Part shown: positions 1,615 through 19,100 of the stretch, one piece after another
How positions within the stretch are numbered: position 1 is the first letter of the stretch
How the letters are laid out: the number at the start of each line of letters is the position of its first letter
Source: a virus
Virus record (IMG/VR): IMGVR_UViG_3300021139_001628
Span: 1 to 20,436 of that record
Length of the DNA: 20,436 bases
Direction: 5' to 3' (one strand)
The notes under the pieces: model-generated
Databases searched by the model: none
Told to the model about the DNA's origin: nothing
Seen by the model: the letters and a program-made list of their open reading frames with translations, nothing else
Translations under genes and position numbers: made by a program

Positions 1615-4600
1615 ATGACACAACAAATAATTGATATTGGTATACAAGGTAACGACGGCACCGGTGATAGTATTCGCGAATCGTTCAATAAAGTTAATGC
1701 TAACTTTACAGAAATTTATGCTATTTTTGGTGCTGGCGGTAGTATTAAATTTGGAAACCTTGCAGATGCTCCAGGTAATAGTACATTCAGTGTAGTAAGT
1801 GCAACTGGCAATGGATCTATTGCAACTATCAACTTTACCAATCCTAACCCAGGGCTAGGGCTTCCATTTAGTATTGGACAAAATATTATTGTTACTGGCA
1901 ATATTCCTACTTCGTATAATGGAAATTATATTGTAACTAATGCAACTACAACTAGTGTTACATTCACTAGTTCGGGTAGTGGTGCGCTAACACAAACAGG
2001 TAAAATTGCTGGCAGTAGTTATAGTGCTAATCAGATTATTATGGCCAGCACCACTGGCAGTAGTTTAACAGCTAGAAATGTTGTAGGCGGTAATGGCATA
2101 ACTATTGATGCATCAAATAATCAACAATTGGTAATTAACTCAAATAGCGGAGGGTTAATTACTGATCCGCAACCAACTCTAGGCACTCATATGAATGCCG
2201 ACGCATTTATTATAGGTAATCTAGCAGATCCAGATCCAAGTTTAGTCAGTCAATTTAATGCAGTTTTTGCCAGTAAGGGATATACAACCACACTAGGGCA
2301 AATGGCTGTTACTGTAAATTACGCTAACAACCATTATCTGCAAGTCACTAATGGACAAATTGTTGGACCGTTACGTGTTAGAGCAATGCCGAGTGTGGCT
2401 CAAACAACCGATCCAGACTATAATGCAAGTTTGACAGGAAACTATGTAGCTACTGAAGCTATACAACGTCAACACGCAGTATTGCGAGATGGCGATACTA
2501 TGACAGGATTGTTAGAATTAAGTGATCATCCTGGCAGTATGGCAGGGTATGGTATTAGAAATGGTAATGACGATCTGCAAGCGGCTACCAAATTTTATGT
2601 AGATAATAATACACATTACAGTAATGTAAATTTATATGTTAGCACAGGTGGCGATGATACACAACGTAACACTCCTCCTGGACGAGAAGGCCGTGCGCCG
2701 CAGTATGCCTACAAATCAGTTGGTGCTGCCTTACTACAAGCACAAAATTTAATCAATTTAGCGTTTTCTGAACCCGGACCATATCGTCAGACTATTGCTT
2801 ATACCATTGGACCAACTCTATATACAAGTAGTATTACCGGTGTTACCTTTAGCGGTGGCAATAGTGCAGTACAAGGTTATTTGGATGCCGCTAGTTTACT
2901 AGAAGCTAACAAATCTTTCATCCAAGCAGAAACTATAGCTTACTTAAACAACAAATATGTAAATGCATTTACATTTGATAAAACTCGTTATGCCAATATT
3001 ATGTCTAATATTGTTAATGGCATAGCATATGACTTAGCATTAGGTACAACATTTAATTCTACTACTCAAGCCAGTATATTATTCGATGGCTATAATGCAG
3101 ATGTGAGCGGTAACTTAACAACAATACTTGCGGCTATTAAAAATGCATCTCAACAGATAACAAATTATTCTTATAGTTCAACAAATTTACAAAATTACCT
3201 TACTAGTGTAATAAATGCTGTGTGTTATGATTTAGAATTCAATTCTAATTATCAAAGTATTCAGGTTGCATTAGGATTTAATTATGCAAATACTGGAATA
3301 GAAACAACACCATCTATTATCAATACACCTGCAACAGCAACTAGTGGCACGGCAACTGGATCTAGTTGTACTATATCTGGAACTACTATGATTGTGGGCG
3401 GAACTGTGGTAGGTTATTTTGCAGTAGGCATGACATTAAGCGGTGCAGGTATTCTTAACGGAACTACTATTATTGCATTAGGTACTGGAACCGGCGGTGC
3501 TGGATCATATACTATTAGTTCTAGTTATGGTACTGCTTTAAGTGATATTAAAGTAACTGGAGTTAATAATACAGTTACCGTTGGAAGCACACAAGGTATG
3601 GTGGTGAATGCCGCTATTGTCTTTACTGGAACTAGTTTTGGCAATATTGTACCAGGAAACACTTATTATATTACTAGTATTGTAGATAGCACTCATATTA
3701 CTATTAGTTCTAGTTACGGTGGTTCTAATTATTCCCTAACTACAGCAACTGGTTCTTTGGAAGCCAATACAACTGCTCCAAGTGAAATAGTTGGTATCCT
3801 TACAAATTTAGGAACACAAATTTCAGCACTATCGGCTGTGGCTACCAGTAGCACTATTTCCAGTTCGATTGAGACTATTCTTGCCAACATAGGCAATATC
3901 ATTGTAACTGGTAGTGTACCAAACCCAACCTTTCCTCCTGTTGTTTCAAATACTGGATTAACCAGCGCAGTAAATTTATTATTGAATAACATTTCATTTA
4001 TTCAAGCAGAAGTAATTGCCTACTTGTTGGCAAACTATCCAACAGTTACATATAATAAAACCACGTGCCAACGAGATGTAAAATATATTGTATGGGCATT
4101 GTGTTATGATTTAACATATGGCGGTAACAGTCAGAGTATACATGCTGGATTGCAATATTGGATTAATGCTGTACTACAAATTGCTAGTTACGAACAAGCG
4201 GCCACAGTTTCAGCTATTGGTTATATTGGTGTTATTGCACAAAATATCGTACAGAATCAAACACCAGTTAAACTATATCAAACTGGTGTTATTCAGTATG
4301 AAAATTCAACTTTAAGCGGAGGTAGTGTAGCAACATCTTCAATAGCCGCAAACATTACTACTATTCAATCGATTGTTGGAAGTAGTAGTCAGCTAAGTCC
4401 TACTGTAGTTGCTCCAACAACATCATCAGTATCGACTACACTAGCTACAGCAGTTTCGGCTATTAAAGCAAATACAACCACTTTAGAATCAAACGCTATT
4501 AGTTTTGTAAACAATAACTTCCCTATAATTAACAATACACTTCAACAAACTACTATTAATACATTATTTGGAATAATAACTTCAATATTATCTAATGGTA

Positions 4601-7600
4601 TTAATAGTCGAACAACTCCTACATACTCAACAACAGGGCTGGGAGCCAGTATTGTACAAGCACAAGCGGCTATTTTAGCTAATATACCTTTCATCACAGC
4701 AGAAACTAATGCTTGGATAAATGTTCAATATCCAGCTGTTAGCTACAGTGCAACAAGTAGTACAAGAGATTTAACATACGTTTTAGAAGCAGTTGTTTAT
4801 GATATCACTTATGGCGGTAATGCGGCTACTACACAAGCGGCTAATCTATATTATGCAAATGGCACGAACCAATTAACTACAGGTCTACCTGCTGTTTGTT
4901 CGGCTGCTCTGAATCACGCATTAAATGTAACACAAACTGTAATAGCAAATAGTGTTGTAACTCCAAGTGTAGGTAATTATATTACTACAACAGGTGTAAG
5001 TGTAACTGGCGGTTATGCTACTGTTACATTTGCTAATCAAGGCAGTGTGCCATATACTATAAATCAAGTAATAACCATACAAGGTATGACGCCTGGTAAT
5101 TATAACGGTTATTGGACTGTAACTGGTTGTACTGCAACTAGCGTAACATTCGCCATAAGTAGCAATTATGGATCACAAACTGTTGCCGGTAAAATTACTA
5201 CCCAAGTTCAAAATGCTAGTTGGACACTCAGTTCTGGACAAAGTTCAACTGTCAACACATTGTTTAATATTGTAACCGGTGTTATTAATTCTGGCACATT
5301 GGTTACACCTACTTATCCAAGTATTTCTAGCGCCAGCTCATCATTGCAAACAACATTTGGTATCATTCAAAATAATGCATATACCATTTCACAAAATGTA
5401 GTAAGTTATTTGAGTACAACCTTTGCTGGCGGATTTAGTTATAACCAAGCTACCTGTTATAGAGATATTGGATATATTATTGATGCACAAGCTATCGATT
5501 TATTAACAGATGGTACATATCAAAGTATCACTGCCGGTAAAAGTTATTACAAGAATGTAAGTGCCAAATCTATTGCTATTGGAACACAATTAACCGAGAC
5601 AATAGATGGTATACAGTTTGCTCAACAACTAGCAGTCCAGGTGTTGAATCAAACCACACAGTCTCGTTATCAATCATTAGTAACACAACAAGTCAATTCA
5701 ACAATCGTAATTGGAACTAATACTATTACTGGCACAGCTGGTACTACAGTAACACTAGGTACTCAAATAAGTTTGGCGGAAGGCCAGGCTATTATAACAG
5801 GATCCAGTATTAGTACCAGTGGTGGACTTGGACAAAGCACAACATATTATGTGGCAGCGGCTGTAACAAATTCATTTACTGTAACTTTAGCATCTAGTTA
5901 TGCAAATGCTATTGCTGGAATTCCTTTAACTTTTAGTACTCTTGCATATAGCACAAATAATGTAATCAGTATCACTGCTGTATATAATGCTACAGTAGGT
6001 ACAAACGTAGCTACTGGATCATATGTAAGCAATACTACAACACAATTGACTTTGACCAGTGTAAGTGGAACAATAGTACCCGGCATGGTTATTACTGGAG
6101 CTGGTTGGACCAACAGCACTCCTGTTACTGTAGTTAGTATAGTCAGCCCAAGTATAGTAATTATTAGCGCGGCTCCTGCTGGCACACCTAGCGGAACTGT
6201 AACATTAACTGCAACTCCAGTTACAACACTTAACGCCAACATGAATACTATTATTAGTATTATCAATGGCGGAGTCGGTGCGGCACCAACACCAAGTTTT
6301 GGTAGTGGTTACTATACTGTTACATTTAGTAACGGAGGTAATGGATATGTTGACCAAGGCCAAAGTGGTGACAATCACATTATTCCTGGTAAAATAATAG
6401 TTGGCGATAATAGTAGCACCTATGGCCAAATCATTAGTTACACTCCTGGAGTTAGTTCAGCTAATGATACTGTTACATTAAATCTAACTCGTCCGGGATT
6501 CTTTACATATATTCCAACTACAGCTTCTGGCTCAAGTGGAAGCTCAAATATAACAGTAGCGTCTACAACTTATACCAGTCAGTTCAATAGTACCTCAACT
6601 ATTGTTGTTGGTTTAGGTGTAACAGGAACAAATATACCGTTAGGAGCAACAGTAACGGCTATAAATGGAAATGTCATAACACTGAGTTCTCCATTATCTG
6701 CAAACATTACTTCGGGCTCTGTAATATTTGGAGAATTGTTAGACTTTGGAGAAACAGTAGCGGATCAGAATATTACTGTGTTTGTTGAAAGTGGTATCTA
6801 TTATGAAGACTATCCATTAAAACTTTCAGCTAACGTAACTATTCGTGGCGATGACTTCCGTCGTACAATTATTCGTCCATTGAATCGTATTAGTCAATCA
6901 CCATGGCGCAATACTTTCTTCTACAGAGATAGTATTATTGACGGTATGCAAATTGGTTTAATTAATTTTTCTGGAACTGATTATGCGGCGGCCACAAATT
7001 CAACTGCTTCCGTTAGCGGTACTACCGGTAATATACAAATTACACTAGGCACTGGACAAGCAAGTCCAACTTGGATCGGATATGTAATCTGTGATGCAAC
7101 TAGCGAAACTGGTACTGCCGGCAAAGCAGTTATTAACACCGTTAGCGGTAATGTCATGAATTGTACTGTAGTCTATCCATTTGCCGCGGTTAAAACTTAT
7201 GCTGCCGGAACATGGCACATGTACAATACATTGAACTATGGACGTCACTATTTGTCTAATCCATTGGATATTAACAGTACTCCATTGAATAATAAAAATA
7301 TTGACGTATTTTTAGTTAACGATGCTACTCGTATCAAATTAATCACTTGTCAAGGACACGGCGGATTTATGATGGTACTTGACCCAGAAGGTCAGATCAA
7401 GACTAAGTCACCATATGGTCAAGAATCAGCCAGCTTCTCAGGCAGTATTAATCGTCAACGTTTTGCTGGTGGTCAATTGATTGATGGATTTGCTGGACGC
7501 TTATTTGGTACTATCACCGGAGTATCAAACAATGGGTATTCTATAACTGTTACTGGAAGTTTGAATAGCGGTCTAGATGTACGTGCTCCGCAGACTCCTT

Positions 7601-10600
7601 GCGCATTTTATATACAAGGTAATCGTTATCAGATCAATAATGTTTTAAGCTATAATAGTTCAACCTATACTGTGGTATTAGGACTAGACACTAGCACACC
7701 GTTCTATCCTAGTGCTGTTTATAGCAATAGCACACTAACAAGTAATATTGCAAGTGCAGTAGATGCGGCTGCTTATGACATGGCATTTGGTAGTAACTAT
7801 CAAAGTATTAAAACTGGTATTACTTTCCTACAACCGGCAAACTCTGTAGTAGGTTTATCATCATCGATTGTTACACAAAGTTTCAGTTATATTAATCAGC
7901 AAATAGCGGCACTTGGCAATGTTGATAGTGCAGGTCAAACTGCTATCTCTAACAATTTGACAATTATTAATAACATTATTATTAATGGTGTTTATGGAAG
8001 TACAAGTGGTATTCCGACTGTTGTATTGCCTAATCCCGCCAATGTAACTACCAATGTGGCTAATGCTAAATTGTTATTACAGGCAAACAAAGCATTTATA
8101 CAAGCTGAAGTAGTTGCTCGCGTATCAGCCAACTACAACGTTGCAAGTTATTCTGGATACAGTGCCTTAACACTATCTAATAATATGGGGTTTGTTATTG
8201 ATGCAATAACATATGATTTATTATATGGTGGTAATAGTAGTGTATACGATGTAGTGCAGTGGTTATACAATTCAACACTTAATACATTGTATACTGCCGC
8301 AGTTGGATATGTTAATACCGTGGCCGGACAAGTAATACAAAAAACAACTGTAACACGCAGTAACGGCAATACACAACAACAAGTAACCACAGGATACACA
8401 GCGGCTACTAGTACAGAGGCAAGCACAATCACTACACTTGTTGCAGTATTGACAGATTATTTCAGTCACTCTGGTTCATTTAATAGTTCGACTAGAACAT
8501 TGCCAACTGTTTCAAGTACAACAACTACTAGTTCATTGTCTACCGATTGGACTAATATTGAAGCGGCAAAAACAAGTATCCAAAGCAATACAATAACCTA
8601 TGCTAATAATGGTGCAGGCATTGCTATTAACATTGAAATGGGCGGTAACAAGTCAATGTTGGCCAATGACTTTACACAAATCAACGATTTGGGTTATGGT
8701 ATTTTGTGTACTAATGCTGGTTTAACTGAACAAGTTTCAACATTTACTTACTATTGCTATACTGCTTACTGGGCGTTGAACGGCGGACAGATTCGTTCTG
8801 TTGCTGGTTCAAACTCAAACGGTGTTTATGGATTACGTGGTACAGGTTCAGACGTTACTGAATTACCGAACGCTGTTAATTTATCAAATAACATGCCGCA
8901 AAGTGCTCGTGTTTATAAGCAAGGTACATACGCCACTGCTATGACTCCTACAACAACAACGCAGGCACTTAATGTTTATATCACCAACTGGGAATATGTC
9001 CCATACGGTACAAGTGAATTAGAAATTGATCATACACTTGCTGGTGGCGGTATTACTCGTTATGAAGTTAGCACAGTAAGTCATACAGCAGTTAATGTTA
9101 ACGGACAAAACGTTCTTAGCTTGACATTAAGTACTAGTGGCGATAATCAAACTAGTACAAACGGTCTAGCATACGCATTGTATGACGGACAAATTGTAAC
9201 TATAAGAAACTTAACCAATATTAAATTTTATAATATTAGTAACGTAAAACCAGTACGTCCAAGTACTGCTTTACAATATACTAACAATCTTGCTAGTATC
9301 TATCGTATTATTAGTTATGGTTTAACAGAAGCCACCGGTGAATCGTTACCGGCTCACCAATCAGTGTTAACCATGGATAGTTCATTTGCATATTATAAGT
9401 TTGTTGTTGATACTTCAAACATGTTTAATGCCGATCCAACTGTTTATGTAACATCAGGTACTGTTGCATTAAGCCCAGCAAGTTCAATCAGCACAACACT
9501 TTATGTTGTAACTAGTTCATTGACTGGTGGTGCTCCAAGCATTGGACAATATGTCGGCGGTTATGGATTTATAAACACAACTGTAACTAATGTTACTACT
9601 AGCGGTGCCAATACTGTTATCACACTCAGTGTTGCACCAACTATTGCTCCTATTGGAACTGTTTGGTTCTCTACTTCTACCATGGGCGGATTAGTTGGCG
9701 ATAATAAAATTGCTGTTCTAACTATCAGCGATAGCGCAACAATAAGTCAATTAAATTTAGGTAGTTATATTTTCAGTTGGAATGGACGTACACATCGTAT
9801 TATCAAATATGTAACTCCGTCTTCTATTGCCAGCGGAACATATAGTCCAACAAGTGGTCCAATATTTAATATAACATCAGGCACTAGTATTAGTTCTGCC
9901 GCTAGTTATACAGGAGTTGCTCAAACATCAACATCTGGTTCAGGCACTGGCGCAGTATTCACAATAACTAAAACAGGAAATGGAACTAGCTATTCTGGTG
10001 CAACTACTATAACTGCAACCACATTAGGTTCAGGGTACGCAATAGGCGATACTATTACAATAGCAGGTGCTAATCTAGGAGGTTCGACTCCTGCTAACAA
10101 TCTTGTATTCACTATCACCGGATACACATTAGTAGTTACAGGACTAGCAGGAACTATCACAGCTAACGAGCCAGTTACTGGTACTGGTTTTAACGGCACT
10201 CAATTAATTTCTGGAACTCCTGTTCTTACTACCTCTCCTGGTTCAAGTAGCATCACAGCTACAGTATCATTGAGCATATATCCAGTAAGTCAGCCTAGTG
10301 GAACTATAACATTTGGTGGTGCGGCAGTTAACGGTTATTTACAGATAGATCCAAATCCAGTAATGAACATAAGTTCAGTAGGTGTAGGTACAAATGCCAT
10401 GACTTATCAAAGCAATGTTTTGGTAACTGGCAGCAATACACAAAAGGTTATTACATTTAATATACCTTATAATACTTTATATTCATACCCTCCAGTTGAT
10501 AGTACATTATCTGTAAGCGGAAATAGCAACAGCAAATATAACGGCAATTTCCAAGTAGCTAGTGTGGTTAATACTAGCCAATTAACTGTTGCTTCAACAG

Positions 10601-13600
10601 CATTACTACAAGTTGGCATGATTATTAGTACTAGCACAACAGGTTCGTTTGTTGAAACAACTAGTACTAATCCAACTGGTACGACGATTATTCAAAGTAT
10701 TGATAGTACGACACAATTTACAGTATCACCTGCTGTTTGGGCTCCTGCTGGGACTAGTATTTCAGCTATCTTAGTAGCGGTGGTATCTAGTATTACTATC
10801 ACAAATGCTGGTAGCAATTATACTTCTGCTCCTATACTTACATTCAGTGGTGGCGGTGCAACTAGTCAAGCATTGGCTACCTGTACTATTTCTAATGGTA
10901 GTATTAGTACTGTTACACTTGTAAGTCCAGGTTATGGTTATACTAGCACTCCGACTATCACTATTAGTGGTAATAGCGGAAGTGCATATAATACTACTAC
11001 TGGTACTAACATTATTACATTAAATTCTAGTGCTAATCTACAGGTTAATCAAATTATCATATTTGGTGGATCAGTATTTGGTAATATTCAAGCTGGTGTA
11101 CAATATTATATTGCAACTATTAATGGTAATCAAATTACAATCAGTGCAAGTTCAGGTGGCGTTGGTCTAATATCTTTGACCACTGCTAGCGGTCCTAGCA
11201 TGACTTGGTATACACCTGGAAATGCTATATTAACTCCAGTGCTAACCAATAGTCCAACAGTAGTTACTACAGTTGTTTCGGGCGTCGACAATCTACAATT
11301 AGGTTTAGTATATCCAACCGATCCTGGAACAAGCGGTAGTGTTACTACAACTACTAATGCTACTGCATCAATTACATCTAGCACAATTAGTAGTGGCGGT
11401 GTATTAACTGTTGGTACTGTCGGTAGCGGTACTGTTGCAGTTGGTATGATATTAACTGGTGGACCTTCGAGTGGATCTGGTATTGCTCAGATTAGTTCTT
11501 ATGCTACAACAGCAACTAGTGGTAACGGAACTACTGCAACTATTACATTTGCGGCGCAGTCCTTTGTGCCTTATGCAGTAGGTCAGACAATTTTTGTATC
11601 AGGTGTAACTCCAACAGGCTATAATGGAACTTATGTAGTCACTGCGGCAACAACAAGTTCTGTAAGTTATTCTAACACAACAACTGGCAGTCAAACTATT
11701 GCTGGTACGGTTGCAAGTACTGTTTACACTTATATTACTTCTAATATTAGTGGTAGCGGCAACGGCTCTACCTGGCAAACTGCAACAAGCCAAGGTAATA
11801 ATTTTGCTGTTACTTCTTCTTCGATAACAGGTACTAATAATTTATTAGCACTAAGTACTGTTTCAAATATATCTGTTGGTAATACAATTACATTTGCTGG
11901 CACTACATTTGGTGGAGTTAGTGTAACCACTGTGACTGCTGGTAGTTTTGTTGTAGGTCAAACATATACTATAACAAGCGTAGGTACTGCTTCAAGTACT
12001 ACAACTGTTACAAACTTTACATCAATTGGTGCTGCCAACAACAACGTTGGTACAGTATTTACAGCAACAGGTGCTGGTAGCGGAAGCGGTCAAGCACTAG
12101 TGACATATTATATTACTGAAGTAGTCGGTAGTTCTGTAGCTATTGCTCCGGCTAAAGGTAGTGCTAATACAACATTAACAACAGCATCTGGTGCTACCTT
12201 AACATTCTATACTCCAAGTTATGGTTTTGGTACTAGCTATACAGCAACTACATTTAGTAGTGTAAGCGGTACTGGACCATACCTAGTAACCTTGAATATT
12301 CCTACTACTACTGCTCCGTCGACTAGTGTTTACTACTATGTCAGCGGTAATAGTAATGCTTTATACAATGGTTATTGGCAAGCTACTACTAGTTCGACAA
12401 CCAGTATTACATTAAGTTATCCATATAACCCAGGTACTTATGGAGTTGGTTCTATAACAACAATAACTAGAGAATCAACAAGTAGCACAAGTTCAAGCCT
12501 AGGTATTAGTAAACCATTTAACCCTAGCACAAGCACAACATTACGTATAGGATATCCTGCCACTGGCGGTGCTCAGATTACTGTTCGTATTAGTACTTGC
12601 CGTGCTACAGGACATGACTTCTTAGATATCGGTACTGGTGGATTTATTACTAGTAACTATCCAAATCAAATTTATGGTAATGCGGCTATAGCTTCTAATG
12701 ACGCTAATGATGTTGTTGAAGAAACTACAGGTCGTGTGTTCCATGTGTCTACAGACCAAAACGGTATCTTCCGTGTAGGTCGTTTCTTCAAAGTTGACCA
12801 AGGTACTGGTACTGTTACATTCTCAGCGTCTATTGCGTTAAGTAACCTAGACGGTCTAGGATTTAAGCGTGGTGTTGTTGTAAGTGAATTCTCAACAGAT
12901 CCTTACATGACAGGCAATGCGGCAGATAGTGTTCCAGTTCAATCTGCTGTTAGAAGCTTTATTGATTATCGTTTAGGATTAGACTACGGTGGTAATCCAG
13001 TTGCTACAAGTAGTTTAATTGGTCCAGGATACTTGGCACTAAATGGTGTCTTAGGTATGAAAGGCAACTTGAATATGGCAAGTTATCAAATTGGTAACTT
13101 GACTATGCCTAATAGTGCTATTACACCTTATGATGCGGCTAATAGAGGTTATGTAGATGTAAACGCAAGTGCGCTGAATAATTTATTCAAACTAAATGAC
13201 CAAGCTATTGGTGCAGTTGCAACATTTGTAAGTTTCAGTAGTACAGGTAATACTGTTACATTGTCGGGTGTTTTTGGTACTATACTAGTTGGTATGGTTA
13301 TCAATGGCACTGGATTTACAGGTGGACAGATTGTAACTAGTGTTAATATTACAGCAGGTGCTACACAGTCGGTGGGCGGTAGCGGTACTGTTACTCTAAA
13401 CAACACCTATAATACAAGCCCAAGTGGCACAATGACATTTAATAACCTAAATAATGGTAATTTACATGTATACGATGGTGTTTATGGACAATGGACTAAT
13501 GTTCCTTTACCAACTACAACTGCTAATGGCAATCAAATTGGTATCACATATACACATGGCACTCCTGGATATTTTACAGCAACTATTTTATCTGGAGTTG

Positions 13601-15414
13601 TAGTTAACTCTGCCGTAAGTGCCAGTGCAGGTATTGCACAAAGTAAATTAGCATTACAAGCGGCAACTGCCCAACCGTCAGGTCAAAGCTCGTATCAACA
13701 AAGTACACTTGGTTTGAGTAGTTTCAATAATCAAGTGTTTACTTCGACTAATGGTTGGATTAACCTAGCTCAATCCGCTAGTGTGCAAACAGGGTATGTA
13801 TCTGGAGGAACTTCAGGAACAAGTACAACAATGGTTGTTGTTAGTACAAATAACATTGTGCCTGGAATGGTAGTATCTGGTATTGGATTTACCAGTAGTA
13901 CTCAAGTTGTTCTAAGTGTAACTAACTCAACCACTCTTGTTTTAAGTGCAGTAGCTGACGGAATTCCAAGCGGTACATTAACATTCGCCAATAGCGGTAT
14001 AGGTCTTCCATACTTGCAACAAATTGGCACTGGTTATGTATTAGGTAATTTGAGCGGATCTAGTTCAAGCCCAACAACGATTACTCCAGGAGCTGTAGTA
14101 AGTGCTGGAGATGGTTTGAAGAATGCCTTGTTTAGTGTTACAAATTCAGTAACAAGCAATGTCAATTCTGCGGCAATGTTGGTGTTGTATGACGGTATTA
14201 CTACAGCCGATAATACGTATGGCGTTATCGGTATAACAACAAGTGGGTCGGCTAATAAATTAGTTAAAACTGGTTCAGACGGATCTTTAAGTGCGGCATT
14301 ATTAAACATTGGTGGCTATAAGGCTATTAGCTCGGCTGGTAGTACAATTAGTTACTTTACTCCTGGTCAATTTACATTTATGACCAGTCAGGACGTTAGC
14401 GGTAGTGCAACAACTACTATCAGCGGTGTGTTAAATGCGTCTGGGACTTTAATATCAACTACACTTGAAACAGGTGCTAGTGTAAGCACTCCGGGTACTA
14501 TGACTGGACAATGGAGTTTAGGTGCGTTAAGTTCATTTAACTTTAGTGCTGGTACTTTACAAAGTAATAATTTAACTGCTGGTAGTTCCAGCACAGCTGG
14601 TACATTTACTGGTGCATGGACATTCAGTCAGGCGTTGACTACAAATGGTATAACCAATACTGGAAATATTACTAGCAACGGAACAAATAGTGCTACTTTC
14701 TACGGTAGTGGAAGTGTTGGGGGAAGTAGCGGAGTAGGGCCATATGTTTACACTCCTAGCGGTTCTGGTACTGGTGCTATTATGGCATTCCATAGAGCAG
14801 GATCTTATGCAATCAACATGGGTCTTGATTCAGATAATGTATTACGCATAGGTGGCTGGAGTGATGGTGCTAATACTTATCGATTGCAATTAGATGCATC
14901 GGGCAACTTGACTACTCGAGGAACCCACTACACTGGTGGGGTACAAACTACAGTTATTACTACTGGTGATCCTTATACAGCTGGTACTATAACTGGTGCT
15001 TGGACATTAACCGCAAATAGCACACTAAATGCTACATGGGCTGACTTGGCAGAGTACTATGAAGGCGATCAAGACTACGAACCAGGAACTGTATTGGTGT
15101 TTGGTGGAGATAAAGAAGTTACTACAACTACCGTTATCAATGATACTCGCAGTGCCGGTGTAGTAACAACTAATCCAGCGTATGTAATGAACGCAGAACA
15201 AACTGGTATTAAAGTTTGTATTGCACTGGCGGGACGAGTTCCAGTTAAGGTAGTGGGTCGGGTTAAGAAGGGAGACATGTTAACAACAAGTGCAACTCCT
15301 GGATATGCTGTTAAAGCATTGACACCAACACTTGGTGCTGTAATTGGTAAAGCATTAGAAGATAAAGACTACGGCGAAGCCGGAGTTATCCAAGTAGCCG
15401 TAGGGAGAGTATAA
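1615..15414 (+). CDS. Giant modular virion fibre/appendage protein, 4,599 aa
   Basis: One uninterrupted frame encodes a Thr/Ser/Gly/Asn/Val-rich, probably extended virion surface protein. By position:
- Residues 5-38: adaptor motif (IxIGxxGNDGTGDxxRxxFxKVNANFTEIY), shared with the next two genes.
- 65-133: first 'YNG' beta module.
- 292-331: DGDTMTG...AATKFYVD, common in phage tail fibres.
- 425-1315 and 2146-2222: helical 'FIQAE...YDL.YGGN.QSI' repeats.
- 1710-1788, 1869-1969, 2339-2437: better-conserved beta-helix-like segments.
- 2755-3690: dense beta modules.
- 3707-3796: FHVSTDQNGIFRVGRFF region.
- 4389-4436: FHRAGSYA...GLDSDN...RIGGWSDG, like coliphage long tail-fibre tips.
- 4475-4599: WADLAEYYEGD terminal domain.
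No signal peptide or membrane segment was seen. The start has GGAG eight bases upstream. By length its mass is roughly 450-500 kDa, far longer than T4 fibre subunits. Fibre function is well supported; receptor and exact virion position are unknown. Confidence 0.93.
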   Translation: MTQQIIDIGIQGNDGTGDSIRESFNKVNANFTEIYAIFGAGGSIKFGNLADAPGNSTFSVVSATGNGSIATINFTNPNPGLGLPFSIGQNIIVTGNIPTSYNGNYIVTNATTTSVTFTSSGSGALTQTGKIAGSSYSANQIIMASTTGSSLTARNVVGGNGITIDASNNQQLVINSNSGGLITDPQPTLGTHMNADAFIIGNLADPDPSLVSQFNAVFASKGYTTTLGQMAVTVNYANNHYLQVTNGQIVGPLRVRAMPSVAQTTDPDYNASLTGNYVATEAIQRQHAVLRDGDTMTGLLELSDHPGSMAGYGIRNGNDDLQAATKFYVDNNTHYSNVNLYVSTGGDDTQRNTPPGREGRAPQYAYKSVGAALLQAQNLINLAFSEPGPYRQTIAYTIGPTLYTSSITGVTFSGGNSAVQGYLDAASLLEANKSFIQAETIAYLNNKYVNAFTFDKTRYANIMSNIVNGIAYDLALGTTFNSTTQASILFDGYNADVSGNLTTILAAIKNASQQITNYSYSSTNLQNYLTSVINAVCYDLEFNSNYQSIQVALGFNYANTGIETTPSIINTPATATSGTATGSSCTISGTTMIVGGTVVGYFAVGMTLSGAGILNGTTIIALGTGTGGAGSYTISSSYGTALSDIKVTGVNNTVTVGSTQGMVVNAAIVFTGTSFGNIVPGNTYYITSIVDSTHITISSSYGGSNYSLTTATGSLEANTTAPSEIVGILTNLGTQISALSAVATSSTISSSIETILANIGNIIVTGSVPNPTFPPVVSNTGLTSAVNLLLNNISFIQAEVIAYLLANYPTVTYNKTTCQRDVKYIVWALCYDLTYGGNSQSIHAGLQYWINAVLQIASYEQAATVSAIGYIGVIAQNIVQNQTPVKLYQTGVIQYENSTLSGGSVATSSIAANITTIQSIVGSSSQLSPTVVAPTTSSVSTTLATAVSAIKANTTTLESNAISFVNNNFPIINNTLQQTTINTLFGIITSILSNGINSRTTPTYSTTGLGASIVQAQAAILANIPFITAETNAWINVQYPAVSYSATSSTRDLTYVLEAVVYDITYGGNAATTQAANLYYANGTNQLTTGLPAVCSAALNHALNVTQTVIANSVVTPSVGNYITTTGVSVTGGYATVTFANQGSVPYTINQVITIQGMTPGNYNGYWTVTGCTATSVTFAISSNYGSQTVAGKITTQVQNASWTLSSGQSSTVNTLFNIVTGVINSGTLVTPTYPSISSASSSLQTTFGIIQNNAYTISQNVVSYLSTTFAGGFSYNQATCYRDIGYIIDAQAIDLLTDGTYQSITAGKSYYKNVSAKSIAIGTQLTETIDGIQFAQQLAVQVLNQTTQSRYQSLVTQQVNSTIVIGTNTITGTAGTTVTLGTQISLAEGQAIITGSSISTSGGLGQSTTYYVAAAVTNSFTVTLASSYANAIAGIPLTFSTLAYSTNNVISITAVYNATVGTNVATGSYVSNTTTQLTLTSVSGTIVPGMVITGAGWTNSTPVTVVSIVSPSIVIISAAPAGTPSGTVTLTATPVTTLNANMNTIISIINGGVGAAPTPSFGSGYYTVTFSNGGNGYVDQGQSGDNHIIPGKIIVGDNSSTYGQIISYTPGVSSANDTVTLNLTRPGFFTYIPTTASGSSGSSNITVASTTYTSQFNSTSTIVVGLGVTGTNIPLGATVTAINGNVITLSSPLSANITSGSVIFGELLDFGETVADQNITVFVESGIYYEDYPLKLSANVTIRGDDFRRTIIRPLNRISQSPWRNTFFYRDSIIDGMQIGLINFSGTDYAAATNSTASVSGTTGNIQITLGTGQASPTWIGYVICDATSETGTAGKAVINTVSGNVMNCTVVYPFAAVKTYAAGTWHMYNTLNYGRHYLSNPLDINSTPLNNKNIDVFLVNDATRIKLITCQGHGGFMMVLDPEGQIKTKSPYGQESASFSGSINRQRFAGGQLIDGFAGRLFGTITGVSNNGYSITVTGSLNSGLDVRAPQTPCAFYIQGNRYQINNVLSYNSSTYTVVLGLDTSTPFYPSAVYSNSTLTSNIASAVDAAAYDMAFGSNYQSIKTGITFLQPANSVVGLSSSIVTQSFSYINQQIAALGNVDSAGQTAISNNLTIINNIIINGVYGSTSGIPTVVLPNPANVTTNVANAKLLLQANKAFIQAEVVARVSANYNVASYSGYSALTLSNNMGFVIDAITYDLLYGGNSSVYDVVQWLYNSTLNTLYTAAVGYVNTVAGQVIQKTTVTRSNGNTQQQVTTGYTAATSTEASTITTLVAVLTDYFSHSGSFNSSTRTLPTVSSTTTTSSLSTDWTNIEAAKTSIQSNTITYANNGAGIAINIEMGGNKSMLANDFTQINDLGYGILCTNAGLTEQVSTFTYYCYTAYWALNGGQIRSVAGSNSNGVYGLRGTGSDVTELPNAVNLSNNMPQSARVYKQGTYATAMTPTTTTQALNVYITNWEYVPYGTSELEIDHTLAGGGITRYEVSTVSHTAVNVNGQNVLSLTLSTSGDNQTSTNGLAYALYDGQIVTIRNLTNIKFYNISNVKPVRPSTALQYTNNLASIYRIISYGLTEATGESLPAHQSVLTMDSSFAYYKFVVDTSNMFNADPTVYVTSGTVALSPASSISTTLYVVTSSLTGGAPSIGQYVGGYGFINTTVTNVTTSGANTVITLSVAPTIAPIGTVWFSTSTMGGLVGDNKIAVLTISDSATISQLNLGSYIFSWNGRTHRIIKYVTPSSIASGTYSPTSGPIFNITSGTSISSAASYTGVAQTSTSGSGTGAVFTITKTGNGTSYSGATTITATTLGSGYAIGDTITIAGANLGGSTPANNLVFTITGYTLVVTGLAGTITANEPVTGTGFNGTQLISGTPVLTTSPGSSSITATVSLSIYPVSQPSGTITFGGAAVNGYLQIDPNPVMNISSVGVGTNAMTYQSNVLVTGSNTQKVITFNIPYNTLYSYPPVDSTLSVSGNSNSKYNGNFQVASVVNTSQLTVASTALLQVGMIISTSTTGSFVETTSTNPTGTTIIQSIDSTTQFTVSPAVWAPAGTSISAILVAVVSSITITNAGSNYTSAPILTFSGGGATSQALATCTISNGSISTVTLVSPGYGYTSTPTITISGNSGSAYNTTTGTNIITLNSSANLQVNQIIIFGGSVFGNIQAGVQYYIATINGNQITISASSGGVGLISLTTASGPSMTWYTPGNAILTPVLTNSPTVVTTVVSGVDNLQLGLVYPTDPGTSGSVTTTTNATASITSSTISSGGVLTVGTVGSGTVAVGMILTGGPSSGSGIAQISSYATTATSGNGTTATITFAAQSFVPYAVGQTIFVSGVTPTGYNGTYVVTAATTSSVSYSNTTTGSQTIAGTVASTVYTYITSNISGSGNGSTWQTATSQGNNFAVTSSSITGTNNLLALSTVSNISVGNTITFAGTTFGGVSVTTVTAGSFVVGQTYTITSVGTASSTTTVTNFTSIGAANNNVGTVFTATGAGSGSGQALVTYYITEVVGSSVAIAPAKGSANTTLTTASGATLTFYTPSYGFGTSYTATTFSSVSGTGPYLVTLNIPTTTAPSTSVYYYVSGNSNALYNGYWQATTSSTTSITLSYPYNPGTYGVGSITTITRESTSSTSSSLGISKPFNPSTSTTLRIGYPATGGAQITVRISTCRATGHDFLDIGTGGFITSNYPNQIYGNAAIASNDANDVVEETTGRVFHVSTDQNGIFRVGRFFKVDQGTGTVTFSASIALSNLDGLGFKRGVVVSEFSTDPYMTGNAADSVPVQSAVRSFIDYRLGLDYGGNPVATSSLIGPGYLALNGVLGMKGNLNMASYQIGNLTMPNSAITPYDAANRGYVDVNASALNNLFKLNDQAIGAVATFVSFSSTGNTVTLSGVFGTILVGMVINGTGFTGGQIVTSVNITAGATQSVGGSGTVTLNNTYNTSPSGTMTFNNLNNGNLHVYDGVYGQWTNVPLPTTTANGNQIGITYTHGTPGYFTATILSGVVVNSAVSASAGIAQSKLALQAATAQPSGQSSYQQSTLGLSSFNNQVFTSTNGWINLAQSASVQTGYVSGGTSGTSTTMVVVSTNNIVPGMVVSGIGFTSSTQVVLSVTNSTTLVLSAVADGIPSGTLTFANSGIGLPYLQQIGTGYVLGNLSGSSSSPTTITPGAVVSAGDGLKNALFSVTNSVTSNVNSAAMLVLYDGITTADNTYGVIGITTSGSANKLVKTGSDGSLSAALLNIGGYKAISSAGSTISYFTPGQFTFMTSQDVSGSATTTISGVLNASGTLISTTLETGASVSTPGTMTGQWSLGALSSFNFSAGTLQSNNLTAGSSSTAGTFTGAWTFSQALTTNGITNTGNITSNGTNSATFYGSGSVGGSSGVGPYVYTPSGSGTGAIMAFHRAGSYAINMGLDSDNVLRIGGWSDGANTYRLQLDASGNLTTRGTHYTGGVQTTVITTGDPYTAGTITGAWTLTANSTLNATWADLAEYYEGDQDYEPGTVLVFGGDKEVTTTTVINDTRSAGVVTTNPAYVMNAEQTGIKVCIALAGRVPVKVVGRVKKGDMLTTSATPGYAVKALTPTLGAVIGKALEDKDYGEAGVIQVAVGRV
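1807..2013 (+). repeat. 'YNG' beta module, copy 1 (giant protein)
   Basis: Pattern: ATINF...PF-x-GQNIIVTG...YNGNYIVTNATTTSVTF...G-KIAG. It recurs at 5008-5202 and 11521-11712 with the same order of motifs, and in weaker form at about 10438-10605 and 12262-12440. It is probably a small all-beta domain. Confidence 0.7.
2887..3285 (+). repeat. Helical fibre repeat 1, with an extra half-repeat
   Basis: LEANKSFIQAETIAYL...RYANIMSNIVNGIAYDLALG (2887-3084) is followed by a half copy, VINAVCYDLEFNSNYQSIQ (about 3172-3285). The unit pattern across copies is FIQAExIAYL-x-Y-x-(Y/F)-x6-RDxxYIxxAxxYDLxYGGNxQSI. The regular hydrophobic spacing suggests alpha-helices, in contrast to the surrounding beta modules. 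Confidence 0.7.
3559..3762 (+). repeat. 'FGN-YYIT' beta module, copy 1
   Basis: Pattern: NTVTVGS...V-x-I-x-FTGTSFGNIVPGNTYYIT...ITISSSYGG...LTTATGSL. The same order of motifs recurs at 10999-11226 and, split by an insertion, at 11830-12222. Confidence 0.65.
3958..4173 (+). repeat. Helical fibre repeat 2
   Basis: This copy reads LLLNNISFIQAEVIAYLLANYP, then TCQRDVKYIVWALCYDL and TYGGNSQSIHAGLQYW. It is the most complete match to the repeat consensus, which is known to me from fibre proteins of marine T4-like phages. Confidence 0.75.
4639..4860 (+). repeat. Helical fibre repeat 3
   Basis: ILANIPFITAETNAWI, RDLTYVLEAVVYDITYGGN and ANLYYAN appear in the same order and spacing as in repeat 2. 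Confidence 0.72.
5008..5202 (+). repeat. 'YNG' beta module, copy 2
   Basis: ATVTFANQ...PYTINQVITIQGMTPGNYNGYWTVTGCTATSVTF...QTVAGKIT matches copy 1 (1807-2013) and copy 3 (11521-11712) along its length. It lies between helical repeats 3 and 4. Confidence 0.7.
5326..5559 (+). repeat. Helical fibre repeat 4
   Basis: This copy reads IIQNNAYTISQNVVSYL, CYRDIGYIIDAQAIDLL and DGTYQSITAGKSYYKNV. It is the most diverged of the five, with TDGTYQSI in place of YGGNSQSI. Confidence 0.68.
6043..6213 (+). repeat. 'GMxxxGxGF' beta module, clear copy
   Basis: LTSVSGTIVPGMVITGAGW...SGTVTLTA. The pattern, with a PGM turn, a G-x-G-(F/W) loop and a closing PSGT-x-T strand, recurs at 10126-10326, 13246-13440 and 13801-13992. 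Weaker forms lie at about 3349-3540, 6523-6720, 9478-9678, 10573-10770 and 11377-11490. Confidence 0.65.
6742..6978 (+). other. Beta-helix-like (pectate-lyase-type) segment of the giant protein
   Basis: Residues 1710-1788 contain ITVFVESGIYYEDYPLKL, VTIRGDDFRRTIIRPLN and SPWRNTFFYRDSIIDGM. The 'V-x-V-x-x-G-x-Y' followed by 'L-x-x-N-V-T-I-x-G' pattern is typical of the first turns of right-handed parallel beta-helices in phage spikes. Arg, Asp and aromatic residues are much more frequent here than in the flanking Thr/Ser-rich modules. No catalytic residues can be assigned. Confidence 0.55.
7219..7521 (+). other. Conserved-looking fibre segment 'DVFLVNDATRIKLITCQGHGGFMM'-type
   Basis: Residues 1869-1969 continue the beta-helix-like region, with repeated strand motifs (IDVFLVNDATRI, LITCQGHGGFMMVLDPEG, IKTKSPYGQESASFSG) and a Gly/Phe-rich end (FAGGQLIDGFAGRLFG). 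The composition is non-repetitive and rich in charged residues, unlike the module array. I associate this stretch with structural proteins of marine T4-like phages. Confidence 0.5.
7735..7836 (+). repeat. Helical half-repeat
   Basis: IASAVDAAAYDMAFGSNYQSIKTG is the C-terminal half of the helical unit and lacks the FIQAE half. It resembles the half copy at 3172-3285 (AVCYDLEFNSNYQSI). Confidence 0.6.
8050..8280 (+). repeat. Helical fibre repeat 5
   Basis: LLLQANKAFIQAEVVARV and MGFVIDAITYDLLYGGNSSVYDVVQWLY follow the unit pattern. This copy stands about 2.5 kb from repeat 4, beyond the beta-helix-like segments. Confidence 0.7.
8629..8925 (+). other. Conserved-looking beta-helix-like segment, third part
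   Basis: Residues 2339-2437 read NIEMGGNKSMLANDFTQI, LGYGILCTNAGL, YYCYTAYWALNGGQIRSV and SNGVYGLRGTGSDV. The periodic Gly/Asn turns and strands suggest a further beta-helix section. It is rich in Cys and Tyr compared with the rest of the protein. Confidence 0.5.
9877..10122 (+). repeat. 'GYAIGDT' module, copy in the giant protein
   Basis: SGTSISSAASYTGV, GAVFTITKTG and GSGYAIGDTITIAGANLGG are followed by TPANNLVFTITG. It is directly followed by a 'GxGF' module (10126-10326). The same module, again followed by a related segment, occurs twice in the last gene (18256-18522 and 18721-18873). Confidence 0.72.
10126..10326 (+). repeat. 'GxGF' beta module following the 'GYAIGDT' module
   Basis: LVVTGLAGTITANEPVTGTGF, then SSSITATVSLSI and PSGTITFGG. 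It forms a two-module unit with 9877-10122. Confidence 0.62.
10999..11226 (+). repeat. 'FGN-YYIT' beta module, copy 2
   Basis: NIITLNSSANLQVNQIIIFGG, VFGNIQAGVQYYIATI and LTTASGPSMTWYTPG. It is uninterrupted and is the best reference for the split copy at 11830-12222. Confidence 0.68.
11521..11712 (+). repeat. 'YNG' beta module, copy 3
   Basis: GNGTTATITFAAQSF, PYAVGQTIFVSGVTPTGYNG, TYVVTAATTSSVSY and GSQTIAGTV. It is closely similar in motif order to copies 1 and 2. Confidence 0.7.
11830..12222 (+). repeat. 'FGN-YYIT' module, copy 3, split by an inserted module
   Basis: The front half (ITFAGTTFGGVSV) and the back half (TYYITEVV...LTTASGATLTFYTPS) match copy 2 at 10999-11226, but 59 codons (11926-12102) lie between them. 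Confidence 0.68.
11926..12102 (+). repeat. Module inserted inside another module ('GSFVVGQTYTITSVG' type)
   Basis: The 59 codons read AGSFVVGQTYTITSVG, then NFTSIGAANNNVGTVFTATG and AGSGSGQA. This unit is a familiar stand-alone repeat in phage tail proteins. Removing it restores a normal 'FGN-YYIT' module around it. Confidence 0.65.
12733..13002 (+). other. Conserved-looking C-proximal fibre segment
   Basis: Residues 3707-3796 (RVFHVSTDQNGIFRVGRFF, LSNLDGLGFKRGVVVSEFS, SVPVQSAVRSFIDYRLG) leave the low-complexity style and look like a defined domain. It is followed by LGMKGNLNMASYQIGNL...AANRGYVD, a linker seen in many tail fibres. Confidence 0.5.
13246..13440 (+). repeat. 'GxGF' beta module, C-proximal copy
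   Basis: TVTLSGVFGTILVGMVINGTG, TVTLNN and SPSGTMTF. It interrupts the region between the AANRGYVD linker and HVYDGVYGQW. Confidence 0.65.
13801..13992 (+). repeat. 'GxGF' beta module, last copy in the giant protein
   Basis: TTMVVVSTNNIVPGMVVSGIG, TTLVLSAVADGIPSG and TLTFAN. This is the cleanest example of the PGM...GxGF...PSGT-x-TF pattern. Confidence 0.68.
14779..14922 (+). other. Long-tail-fibre-like tip segment (receptor-binding candidate)
   Basis: Residues 4389-4436 contain MAFHRAGSYAINMGLDSDN and LRIGGWSDGANTYRLQLD. The order FHR-x-G-x-YA...GLD-x-DN...GGWS-x-G is well known from distal (gp37-like) long tail-fibre proteins of coliphages. It suggests a distal, possibly receptor-facing position. 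The assignment is by motif only. Confidence 0.55.
15037..15411 (+). other. C-terminal 'DLAEYYEGD' domain of the giant protein
   Basis: Residues 4475-4599 start WADLAEYYEGDQDYEPGTVL and continue through RSAGVVTTNPAYVMN, LAGRVPVKVVGRVKKGD and GVIQVAVGRV. This ending is common in large structural proteins of marine T4-like phages. The AD-x-AE-x-(Y/F)E start recalls the self-cleaving C-terminal domains of phage appendages (the Peptidase_G2 family), which help trimers form. Whether this copy cleaves itself is unknown; no active-site residue is assigned. Confidence 0.55.
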
Positions 15415-15614
15415 TGACTCAACAAACTATCAACGTAGGTGCAACTGCAAACGATGCGACTGGGGATCCTATTCGCACCGCATTTACAAAAGTAAATGCA
15501 AACTTTACAGAATTGTACGCCAATCCAGATTATATCAGTAAAGCTAGTCTACAAGCCATTGTTGCGGCAAGTTCTAGCTTTTCGGACTTCCAATCAAGGA
15601 TAGCCGCGCTATAA
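15414..15614 (+). CDS. 66-aa adaptor-only fibre paralogue
   Basis: The ATG overlaps the TAA stop of the giant gene (TAATG, sharing base 15414). AGGGAGAG (15402-15409) lies just upstream, so translation is probably coupled. Residues 5-36 are the same adaptor motif (INVGATANDATGDPIR, then [13 protein letters not shown]) that opens the giant protein and the next gene. Only about 30 residues follow, including ISKASLQAIVAASSSFSDFQ, which could form an amphipathic helix. The protein therefore has the presumed attachment motif but no fibre shaft. It may be a small virion component, a relic of a fibre gene that lost its shaft, or a spare adaptor. The good ribosome site and intact frame favour a real gene. 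Confidence 0.8.
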   Translation: MTQQTINVGATANDATGDPIRTAFTKVNANFTELYANPDYISKASLQAIVAASSSFSDFQSRIAAL

Positions 15615-15615
15615 C

Positions 15616-16124
<509 letters not shown>

Positions 16125-16140
16125 GGTAGGAGAATATTAA

Positions 16141-19100
16141 ATGGCATTACAATTAAGAAGAGGATTGGCGGCAAGTAGAACTTCAATCATTCCTGCACAA
16201 GGTGAACTATTATATACTACTGATACCAAGCTAGTGTATGTGGGCGATGGAGTAGTAGCTGGTGGTAATCCCATTTCAGTAATAACATCCGTTAACGGTC
16301 AGACTGGGGCTGTTGCCTTAACCACAGACAATATTTCAGAAGGTGTAACTGCCGGCAAACAATATTTCACGGCTACAAGAGCTGCCGATGCCGCTGGAGC
16401 AATGCTGGCCGCAGGCACATTAAGCGGGCTAACTGTCAGCTATAATAGCACTACACATATTATTACCATTACTAACTCAAATGTAATCCAATCAGGTACT
16501 ACAAACAGTTTAGCTTATTGGGCCAGTAACGGAACAACACTAAGTCCAAGTTCAAGTATGACTTGGAATGAATCTAGCAACATATTACAAAACATTAACG
16601 GTACAATACAAGTTATTGCTAACAATTCCGGACGTGCTTTGGTTACATTGGATAGCTACAATAATATAGGAACTTCGCCAAACCTTTTAGCATTTAGAAA
16701 AGCTAGAGGAACAAACGTAGCTCCAACAGCACTAGTTCAAGGCGATACCATTCACTCATTAGTATGGTCAGGTTATGATGGCACTAATTACATACAATCA
16801 GGCGCTATCACAGTGTCAGTTTCCGAGACAGTTGCTAGCAATAGTGTTGCTGGCAGTATGATATTTTATGTTACCGACGCCAACAATAACACAAATCCTA
16901 TTGCACGTTTTCAAGATATTGGACAAGTAACGTTTGGTCCAGTTTATACTACTGATACTGGAACAGCTCGTTTAGTGGTTCGCCAAACTGGTGTTACGAC
17001 TTATAATAATCCTGTGGGAAGATTTGACAACTTCTACAGTGATGCTAACGGACCAACAATCAGTTTCAACAAAGCCAGAGGCTCTTATGCCAGCCCTGTA
17101 GCTGTACAATCACAAGACGAACTAATGACCTTAGTTGCTCGCGGATATTACAACACTACTACAGCATCACCAGCAGGTGCCATTGACATTTATGTAGATG
17201 GAGCACCTGGCAGCAACTATGTACCAGGCGCTGTTAGAATTAAAACTACAAACAGTAAAGGTGTATTAACTTCCGCTTTAGTAATCGATAGTACACAAAC
17301 TGCAACATACAGCGGCAACGTTGTGGTAAATGGCACATTAGTAGTTAATGGTCCTACTGTTACTACAAATGCCAGCACTATAAATGTAGAAGATAAACTA
17401 ATGAAGTTGGGCTATCTAACTGGTTCAACTGTAAGTCCTACTGGCTATATTTCTTCTGTTACTAGCGGTACAGCTGGAATGACATTTATATCTAGCGGAA
17501 CTAGTGTTAGTGCGGCATCTACTTACACCAATGTAAGTCCTATAGCTACAAGTGGAACTGGTATTGGAGCAGTATTTACAGTTGCTAAAACAGGCAGTGC
17601 CACATATTACAATGTTTCAAATGTCACAATAGCTTCAGGTATTGTTGGCAACATTAAAGGTGCTTTACTATCTCCTACATTAACTGCATCGGCAAATGCC
17701 GCTTCAGTAGGTGGAACTCAGACAATAGCCTATGCCTCAGGCGAGACTCTAACAGTGTCTAGCGGTAGTCCATCTGGTACTTCAACATTTAGCCCAGTAT
17801 TAACAACTTATGGTTCTTTCAATGCAAGTGCAATTTCATCCAGTGGTCTTATAACCCTAAATAGTGGAACAATTACAGCTATTAAAGGCACTAGCATTAC
17901 ATTTGCCGCAGGGTTGACTGGAGTAACTGGAATAACCCCTGGCGGAACTTATTATGTATTGAATAGTGTAACATCAAGTACAAGTGTACAGATTACCAAT
18001 TCCTATGCCAATGCTGTTTCAGGTACAAGCATGAGCGGTATAACTGGTACACCTGGAGGCGTGACTAGTCTCACTGTTGGTACAACCTACGCATCGGTTG
18101 CCAGTGTAACACTAGTTACTGGAGGAACATATACTGGCACTTATAGTACATCTGCACAAGTTCCTTCAACAAGTGTATCTAGTGGATCTGGATTGTTATT
18201 AACGCTAACTTATACTACAACACCAAGTGGTGGTACAACTTATAGCGTATCTGCAGGTGTAAGTATTGCTAGCGCAGGTACATATACAGGTGTGACTCAA
18301 AGCACAACAACTGGAACAGGTACAGGTGCGGCATTTACTGTGGTTAAAACTGGAACAAGTACTAGTTATTATAGTAATGTTACTATAACTGTAACAAGTT
18401 TTGGTACTGGTTATGCCATAGGAGATACTATTGTATTGCCTGGTAGTTTGCTAGGCGGTGTAAACATAGCTAACGATTTATCAATCATAGTACAAAGTGC
18501 GCTAGGGAGCCCATGGACTGGAACCTTAAGCTCAATGCCAAACACTACAGGTTTAATTGCTGGAGCAACAGTTACAGCAACCAATGGAGGATCTGGCGGA
18601 ACACTAGGAAGTGGTACTACAGTTATCAATACTGTTGCAAGTTCTACCAGCATAACATTTACCAGCACAGGAGGAACAACTCCAGTCAATGGTAATATTA
18701 TTAATCTAACACAAAGCGGAATTATCAATACTACTATAACAGTTACCACATCGGGATCAGGTTATAGTTTAGGAGATACTGTTACATTGCCAGGAGCAAG
18801 TTTAGGCGGAACAACTCCTGCTAACAACTTAGTTCTAACTTTATTCAATAATTCTACAAGTCCATGGACAGCTACCGTGATAGCTATGAGCGATACAGTA
18901 GATTTAATTCCTGGAAGTGTTATCACAGCGACCACTCCAGCAACAAGCACAGGAGTTATAACTGCAACAGCAACTACTCACTCTACTGCTAATAATACTA
19001 GTGCTACATTCCAAGGAACAACATTGACTCTTAGTGGAACAACTACTGGAACTTTTGTGCCTGGTATGTATTTAACTGGTGGTGTTGGTGTTCTAGCTGG

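Follow-up and report, generated by a model that had tools for sequence, protein, structure and literature searches.

A giant modular phage protein, probably a baseplate-anchored adsorption fibre, with small modules inserted within its conserved core

The DNA analysed here, a whole IMG/VR contig of 20,436 bases (the window), carries a gene of 13.8 kb whose 4,599-residue product is probably an adsorption fibre anchored in the baseplate of a freshwater T4-like jumbo myovirus. The gene itself is real, complete and evolutionarily maintained. The fibre reading draws on a PF07880 anchor, on matches of the core to tail fibres, on a Peptidase_G2-like end, on the gp43 of a jumbo-phage relative and on selection along the whole gene, and also on the correlation between length and module number, on indels of whole modules, on a nested module and on the beta-helix slot described below. 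The gp9/gp10-type N-terminal domain would plug the protein into the baseplate, probably as a homotrimer, while the interrupted beta-helix and the conserved patches would form the shaft and the host-touching tip. The Peptidase_G2-like C-terminal domain may guide folding of the trimer before, probably, being cut off. The gene and its neighbours are as follows.

400 to 960, + strand: Fe/Mn superoxide dismutase (SOD; E=2.4e-23), syntenic
938 to 1225, - strand: 95-aa CxxC...CxxC protein between SOD and HesB, with a weak zinc-ribbon match (E=0.064)
1258 to 1611, + strand: HesB/IscA-type Fe-S carrier (E=1.7e-20), 3 nt before the fibre ATG, syntenic
1603 to 1606, + strand: GGAG ribosome-binding site, 8 nt 5' of the fibre ATG, within the 3'-terminal codons of the HesB/IscA-type gene
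1615 to 15414, + strand: giant fibre gene, ATG start, single unbroken ORF of 4,599 aa
15414 to 15614, + strand: 66-aa gp9/10-N-type protein, its ATG overlapping the fibre stop
15642 to 16124, + strand: 160-aa gp9/10-N-type protein (Pfam, PHROG)
16141 to 20436, + strand: second long fibre-like protein of at least 1,432 aa, with an Mtd N-terminal domain and C, D and F modules, running off the contig end

The initial annotation had described one unbroken frame with a good ribosome site, several times longer than T4 long-fibre subunits and not an assembly artefact, and each of these points is borne out, the length being 4,599 aa against 1,289 aa for T4 gp34 (PMC5537660). At the GC content of 36-42%, about 6-7% of random codons are stops, so that ~4,600 codons in a row without a stop are impossible by chance. 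The ATG of the next ORF overlaps the fibre stop codon (TAATG at 15412-15416). Tandem Repeats Finder detects no DNA repeat array in the window, and collapse or expansion of repeats during assembly is thus no concern; no tRNA genes were found in the window either. A first scan of viral contigs returned 64 loci, of which 29 are strong relatives of the giant gene (in this set L074 is identical to L073, and L076 nearly so to L075). Homologous frames in other contigs are all unbroken, at 4382, 4655, 4383, 4570, 4405, 4512, 4808, 4604, 3928 and 2443 aa, and these 10 distinct full-length relatives are collinear with the window gene and open throughout. The comparison of homologous loci for length variation that had been proposed thus gives relatives of 2,443-4,808 aa that differ by whole modules. 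The giant gene is under purifying selection along its full length: codon comparison with four relatives gives dN/dS ratios of 0.145, 0.129, 0.208 and 0.206, which are only approximate because dS exceeds 1, and pN/pS is at most about 0.55 in each 500-aa block. One partial relative, L015, is interrupted by an in-frame TAA (5975-5977, ~aa 1037 of the giant homologue), as might be expected if the long frame were an artefact or a fusion of adjacent genes; this stop may be a mutation or a sequencing error. Set against the same collinear open frame in 10 distinct relatives from other contigs, the lack of DNA repeats in the window and the selection on every block, such an origin has a negligible probability, and misassembly in particular is excluded by the independent homologues and by selection. 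For annotators, this means that structural genes of 10-17 kb in freshwater jumbo phages are real.

The order SOD, HesB, giant gene, gp9/10-N protein recurs in most relatives. We considered an iron-loaded fibre in view of the SOD and HesB neighbours, but there is no firm link, since both genes are missing directly upstream of a 5.8-kilo-residue relative on contig G017. The 95-aa CxxC...CxxC protein is conserved in G002 and G005. The two small downstream genes share the gp9/gp10 N-terminal domain of the giant protein. The 66-aa gene has little beyond this anchor; relatives have versions of 87-252 aa at its place, and these small genes are possibly adaptors or fibre remnants. F modules of the second long gene have ~70-75% DNA identity to the F module of the giant gene.

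Along the protein, the anchor, the conserved core and the C-terminal domain are arranged as follows.

1624 to 1788, + strand: T4 gp9/gp10-type baseplate anchor, aa 4-58 (PF07880 T4_gp9_10_N; PDB gp9, gp10)
2635 to 2766, + strand: first strand(s) of the beta-helix core, aa 341-384, LYVSTGGDD..., from pattern comparison with Mosig_63
2767 to 6762, + strand: large insertion of ~1,330 aa, aa 385-1716, in which B, C and D modules accompany five alpha-helical A modules
6763 to 7614, + strand: conserved beta-helix core, aa 1717-2000, with columns averaging 76% identity across 9 homologues and continuity with Mosig
8587 to 9474, + strand: conserved core patch 2, aa 2325-2620, of which aa 2325-2431 are common to Kyanoviridae fibres
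12532 to 13104, + strand: conserved tip-like core patch 3, aa 3640-3830, CRATGHDFLDIGTGGF..., with 490 IMG/VR relatives
14983 to 15411, + strand: Peptidase_G2-like C-terminal domain, aa 4457-4599 (profile match in 9 of 11 homologues)

What had been taken for a typical structural-protein N-terminus proves to be an anchor of the T4 gp9/gp10 type: PF07880 matches aa 1-62 with E=4.8e-8 and 33.7 bits, above the Pfam cut-off of 25, and PDB searches match T4 gp9 (E=5.6e-4) and gp10 (E=1.5e-3). No gp9/gp10 body follows this domain, as the PDB match ends at about residue 54 and Pfam adds nothing; the giant protein has the N-terminal domain in common with T4 gp9 (288 aa) and gp10 (602 aa) but does not align with them outside it. 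Since the N-terminus is a gp9/gp10-type baseplate plug, a long-fibre joint as in T4 appears less likely than direct attachment to the baseplate, and Pfam and PHROG give no match of the gp34/gp37 type for the giant protein.

Two core patches (aa 2325-2431 and 3654-3786) match Kyanoviridae tail fibres at 36-45% identity, with E down to 1.7e-25, and the annotated tail fibres matched are those of P-SSM2, S-CAM1, S-SSM7, Sf-FS3 and Mosig. Searches with core profiles returned no convincing solved structure, and the beta-helix core was not found in the bacterial and archaeal genomes searched, so that it gives no hint of the host. The start of the beta-helix in Mosig_63 (YVANSGSD...) lies ~95 aa from the strand that follows it (VYVKNGVYRETLPLRVPPGVTVQGESLRGTEIRP), whereas the equivalents of the two in the window protein, LYVSTGGDD... 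and VFVESGIYYEDYPLKLSANVTIRGDDFRRTIIRP, are separated by ~1,330 aa filled with modules, as judged by eye at the level of motifs. The largest expansion, as read from these motifs, is thus an insertion between two strands of the beta-helix and not a plain end-to-end lengthening of a shaft. Modules enter the conserved core, as the two slot lengths indicate, and length is no guide to reach; nor is module number simply shaft length, since the modules are mostly inserted within that core. The initial annotation had pictured well-defined segments alternating with module arrays, and a shaft extended by gaining modules, suggestive of unusual reach or several binding faces. The core, the tip-like region and the terminal domain are indeed found, and length does grow with modules, but most modules sit inside the conserved core, and length lends no support to unusual reach.

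Around 25 small modules are carried on the conserved core. Iterated profile models count seven A, five B, five to six C and four D modules and one each of E, F and G, with two of the four D hits being halves of one split D module. Whole-protein self-BLAST gives no off-diagonal hits, and the repeats emerged with iterative profile models. Located modules and module-sized differences are the following.

2908 to 3078, + strand: A module 1 (profile E=2.9e-18)
3112 to 3282, + strand: A module 2 (profile E=1.1e-14)
3988 to 4161, + strand: A module 3, RDVxYIVxAxxYDLxYGGNS (profile E=1.9e-30)
4681 to 4854, + strand: A module 4 (profile E=2.6e-22)
5374 to 5550, + strand: A module 5 (profile E=5.6e-22)
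5767 to 5985, + strand: 73-aa stretch, aa 1385-1457, in the window protein but not in L070, L071, L075 and L077
7621 to 7830, + strand: A module 6 (profile)
8086 to 8268, + strand: A module 7 (profile)
9844 to 10116, + strand: F module, ~aa 2744-2834, missing at the same site in the related giants compared
11509 to 11706, + strand: B module, aa 3299-3364, present in the window protein, L070 and L071, absent from L072, L073, L075, L077 and L078
11839 to 12189, + strand: D module interrupted by a G module (11929-12096) nested within it

An AF2 monomer model of aa 770-1320 (pLDDT 58, moderate) predicts the A units as all-helical bundles and B as a beta domain between helices; that of aa 3601-4599 (pLDDT 41) was unusable and is left uninterpreted. 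A phycobiliprotein-like fold for the A array was dropped, the best hit of the PDB fold search (E 4.9e-3) not being significant.

Close relatives differ by insertion or deletion of whole modules. Besides the differences listed, a block of 309 aa in L071, which holds two A units and has a counterpart in L073 and L081, is absent from the window protein, and the nesting of G inside D occurs in the window protein and several relatives. Module copies within the protein share roughly 20-48% identity, against 54-91% for the orthologous copies in L071, so most modules are older than the split of the close relatives. Protein length rises closely with module number across 32 full-length sequences (r=0.92, Spearman 0.96; r=0.87 for the 19 outside the model training set), with about 100 aa per module and an intercept of 2,174 aa, a correlation that is descriptive because the proteins are phylogenetically related and the points non-independent. 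The A count is nearly constant across the family, mostly 7 or 9, whereas the small beta modules (B, C, D) vary. Family length thus changes by gain and loss of whole modules within a fixed core, and the resulting rule is ~2,200 residues of core plus ~100 residues per module.

Whether this turnover benefits the phage, through modules that may serve for surface binding, as spacers or as a shield for the fibre, can be argued both ways. The modules could be a selfish or recombination-driven form of neutral inflation that brings no gain in reach or binding: close relatives carry differing module sets, and the core stays constant while the beta modules vary. However, modules at orthologous sites are under purifying selection and many module positions are conserved family-wide, and we consider neutral inflation unlikely. 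It is less likely again that the giant protein is a component or arm of the baseplate wedge and not a receptor-binding fibre. Such an arm would be modelled on the giant structural proteins that adjoin gp6/gp25 in Atu_ph07, Phosso, PA5oct and S-ShM2, and would fit the gp9/gp10-type N-terminus and the match of A modules to proteins annotated as gp7 in cyanophages P-HM2 and P-HM1. Yet the window gene does not adjoin gp6/gp25, and its product aligns with the Atu_ph07 and Phosso giants in E-type modules only. The core of this product can be aligned with annotated tail fibres, and the protein ends in what looks like a fibre chaperone, although sequence by itself does not separate a fibre from a baseplate arm.

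This end also bears on whether a single 4,599-residue chain is present in the virion at all. Peptidase_G2 is an intramolecular chaperone and autocleavage domain. A typical C-terminal domain had been claimed for the protein, and a Peptidase_G2-like one (PF11962) is indeed matched in 9 of 11 homologues, but with scores under the Pfam cut-off (best E 2.7e-4; 17.7 bits against a cut-off of 25 for the window member). The C-terminal ~140 aa match nearby genes of Atu_ph07, Phosso and PA5oct, and the ~5.8-kilo-residue G017 relative has Peptidase_S74, another fibre chaperone, in place of this end. The Peptidase_G2-like domain points to one or more cuts around aa 4457, and perhaps the protein is cut after translation into several mature pieces. 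But such a cut would take off the C-terminal domain alone, and Pfam and PHROG find no further protease or cleavage-type domain, which makes extensive cutting quite improbable.

An adsorption fibre fits this evidence best overall. A bolder and more doubtful scenario goes further: the protein may represent an undescribed kind of gp9/gp10-plugged mega-fibre in which the beta-helix is broken near its start by a ~1,300-residue helix-rich array that could form side arms or a hinged branch. Turnover of cassettes, modules within modules included, would tune how long the fibre is and which binding faces it presents, across a whole clade of freshwater jumbo phages, each of which might carry three such fibres; we regard this fuller picture as possible but somewhat less than even in its chances. 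We found no prior description of a gp9/10-anchored, module-inserted fibre architecture in the literature covered, most subscription journals lying outside it. The whole-module differences between close relatives would in any case offer a natural experiment on how host-contact appendages are rebuilt.

The gp43 of a 104-kb sister contig is nearest to that of Phosso, Atu_ph07 and 121Q-like jumbo phages, and family relatives occur on contigs of 223-356 kb. Core patch 3 has 490 relatives in IMG/VR; the complete ones among the matches listed are of 3.3-4.4 kilo-residues, and the freshwater family as a whole spans 3.3-5.8. A fibre frame of ~5,807 aa with a Peptidase_S74 end is found at L187/L188 on G017 (a 259-kb contig). 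G017 also encodes a PmoC/AmoC-family protein (E=6e-112), a gene family likewise present in the large freshwater pmoC-phages already published (PMC7674155), and some phages of the family may matter ecologically. Contigs of 223, 345 and 356 kb each encode three paralogous giant fibres. Paralogues in L189, L191 and L193 have a Kyanoviridae-type MAxFKLGRIKF N-terminus; those in L191 (3,292 aa) and L193 (4,042 aa) share core and module types with the window protein but differ from it in this N-terminus, and the L191 protein also in six CBM_5_12 chitin-type binding domains.

Size alone does not make the window protein exceptional, since cultured T4-like phages encode virion proteins of 3.9-6.2 kilo-residues. 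The S-ShM2 protein SShM2_093 (NC_015281, 61318-79914) is a virion structural protein of 6,198 aa next to gp6/gp25, AUZ94962 of Atu_ph07 has 4,449 aa, XYS97451 of Phosso 4,555 aa, and gp355 of PA5oct, detected by ESI-MS/MS, 3,857 aa. RaK2 gp098 was dropped as a giant fibre, its C-terminus being aa 368-595 and the protein being treated as a baseplate protein (PMC10253068). The S-ShM2, Atu_ph07, Phosso and PA5oct giants are T4-like virion proteins of similar size to the window protein, but they adjoin gp6/gp25, whereas the neighbours of the window gene are SOD and HesB, and the gp9/10 anchor was found in none of them. The three that were aligned (Atu_ph07, Phosso, PA5oct) have no core homology with the window protein, and E modules and weak F modules are the most that they have in common with it. 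A modules recur in WJZ47903 of Synechococcus phage DSL-LC03 (3,161 aa; 50% identity over 118 aa), and A-type helical domains in tail proteins of cyanophages S-WAM2 and S-PM2 (BFVD structural matches); beyond the A domains, alignment of these proteins with the window protein is limited to short segments. The Kyanoviridae tail fibres PSSM2_301 (1,326 aa, P-SSM2), SXBG_00229 (1,090 aa, S-CAM1), SSSM7_113 (1,477 aa, S-SSM7) and Mosig_63 (1,245 aa) differ from it in carrying a MAxFKLGRIKF-type N-terminus instead of gp9/10, in lacking A modules and a matching C-terminal domain, and in being about one third as long. They resemble it in the two core patches, and the fibre of Pelagibacter phage Mosig also shares the beginning of the beta-helix, where inserted modules occupy the same slot.
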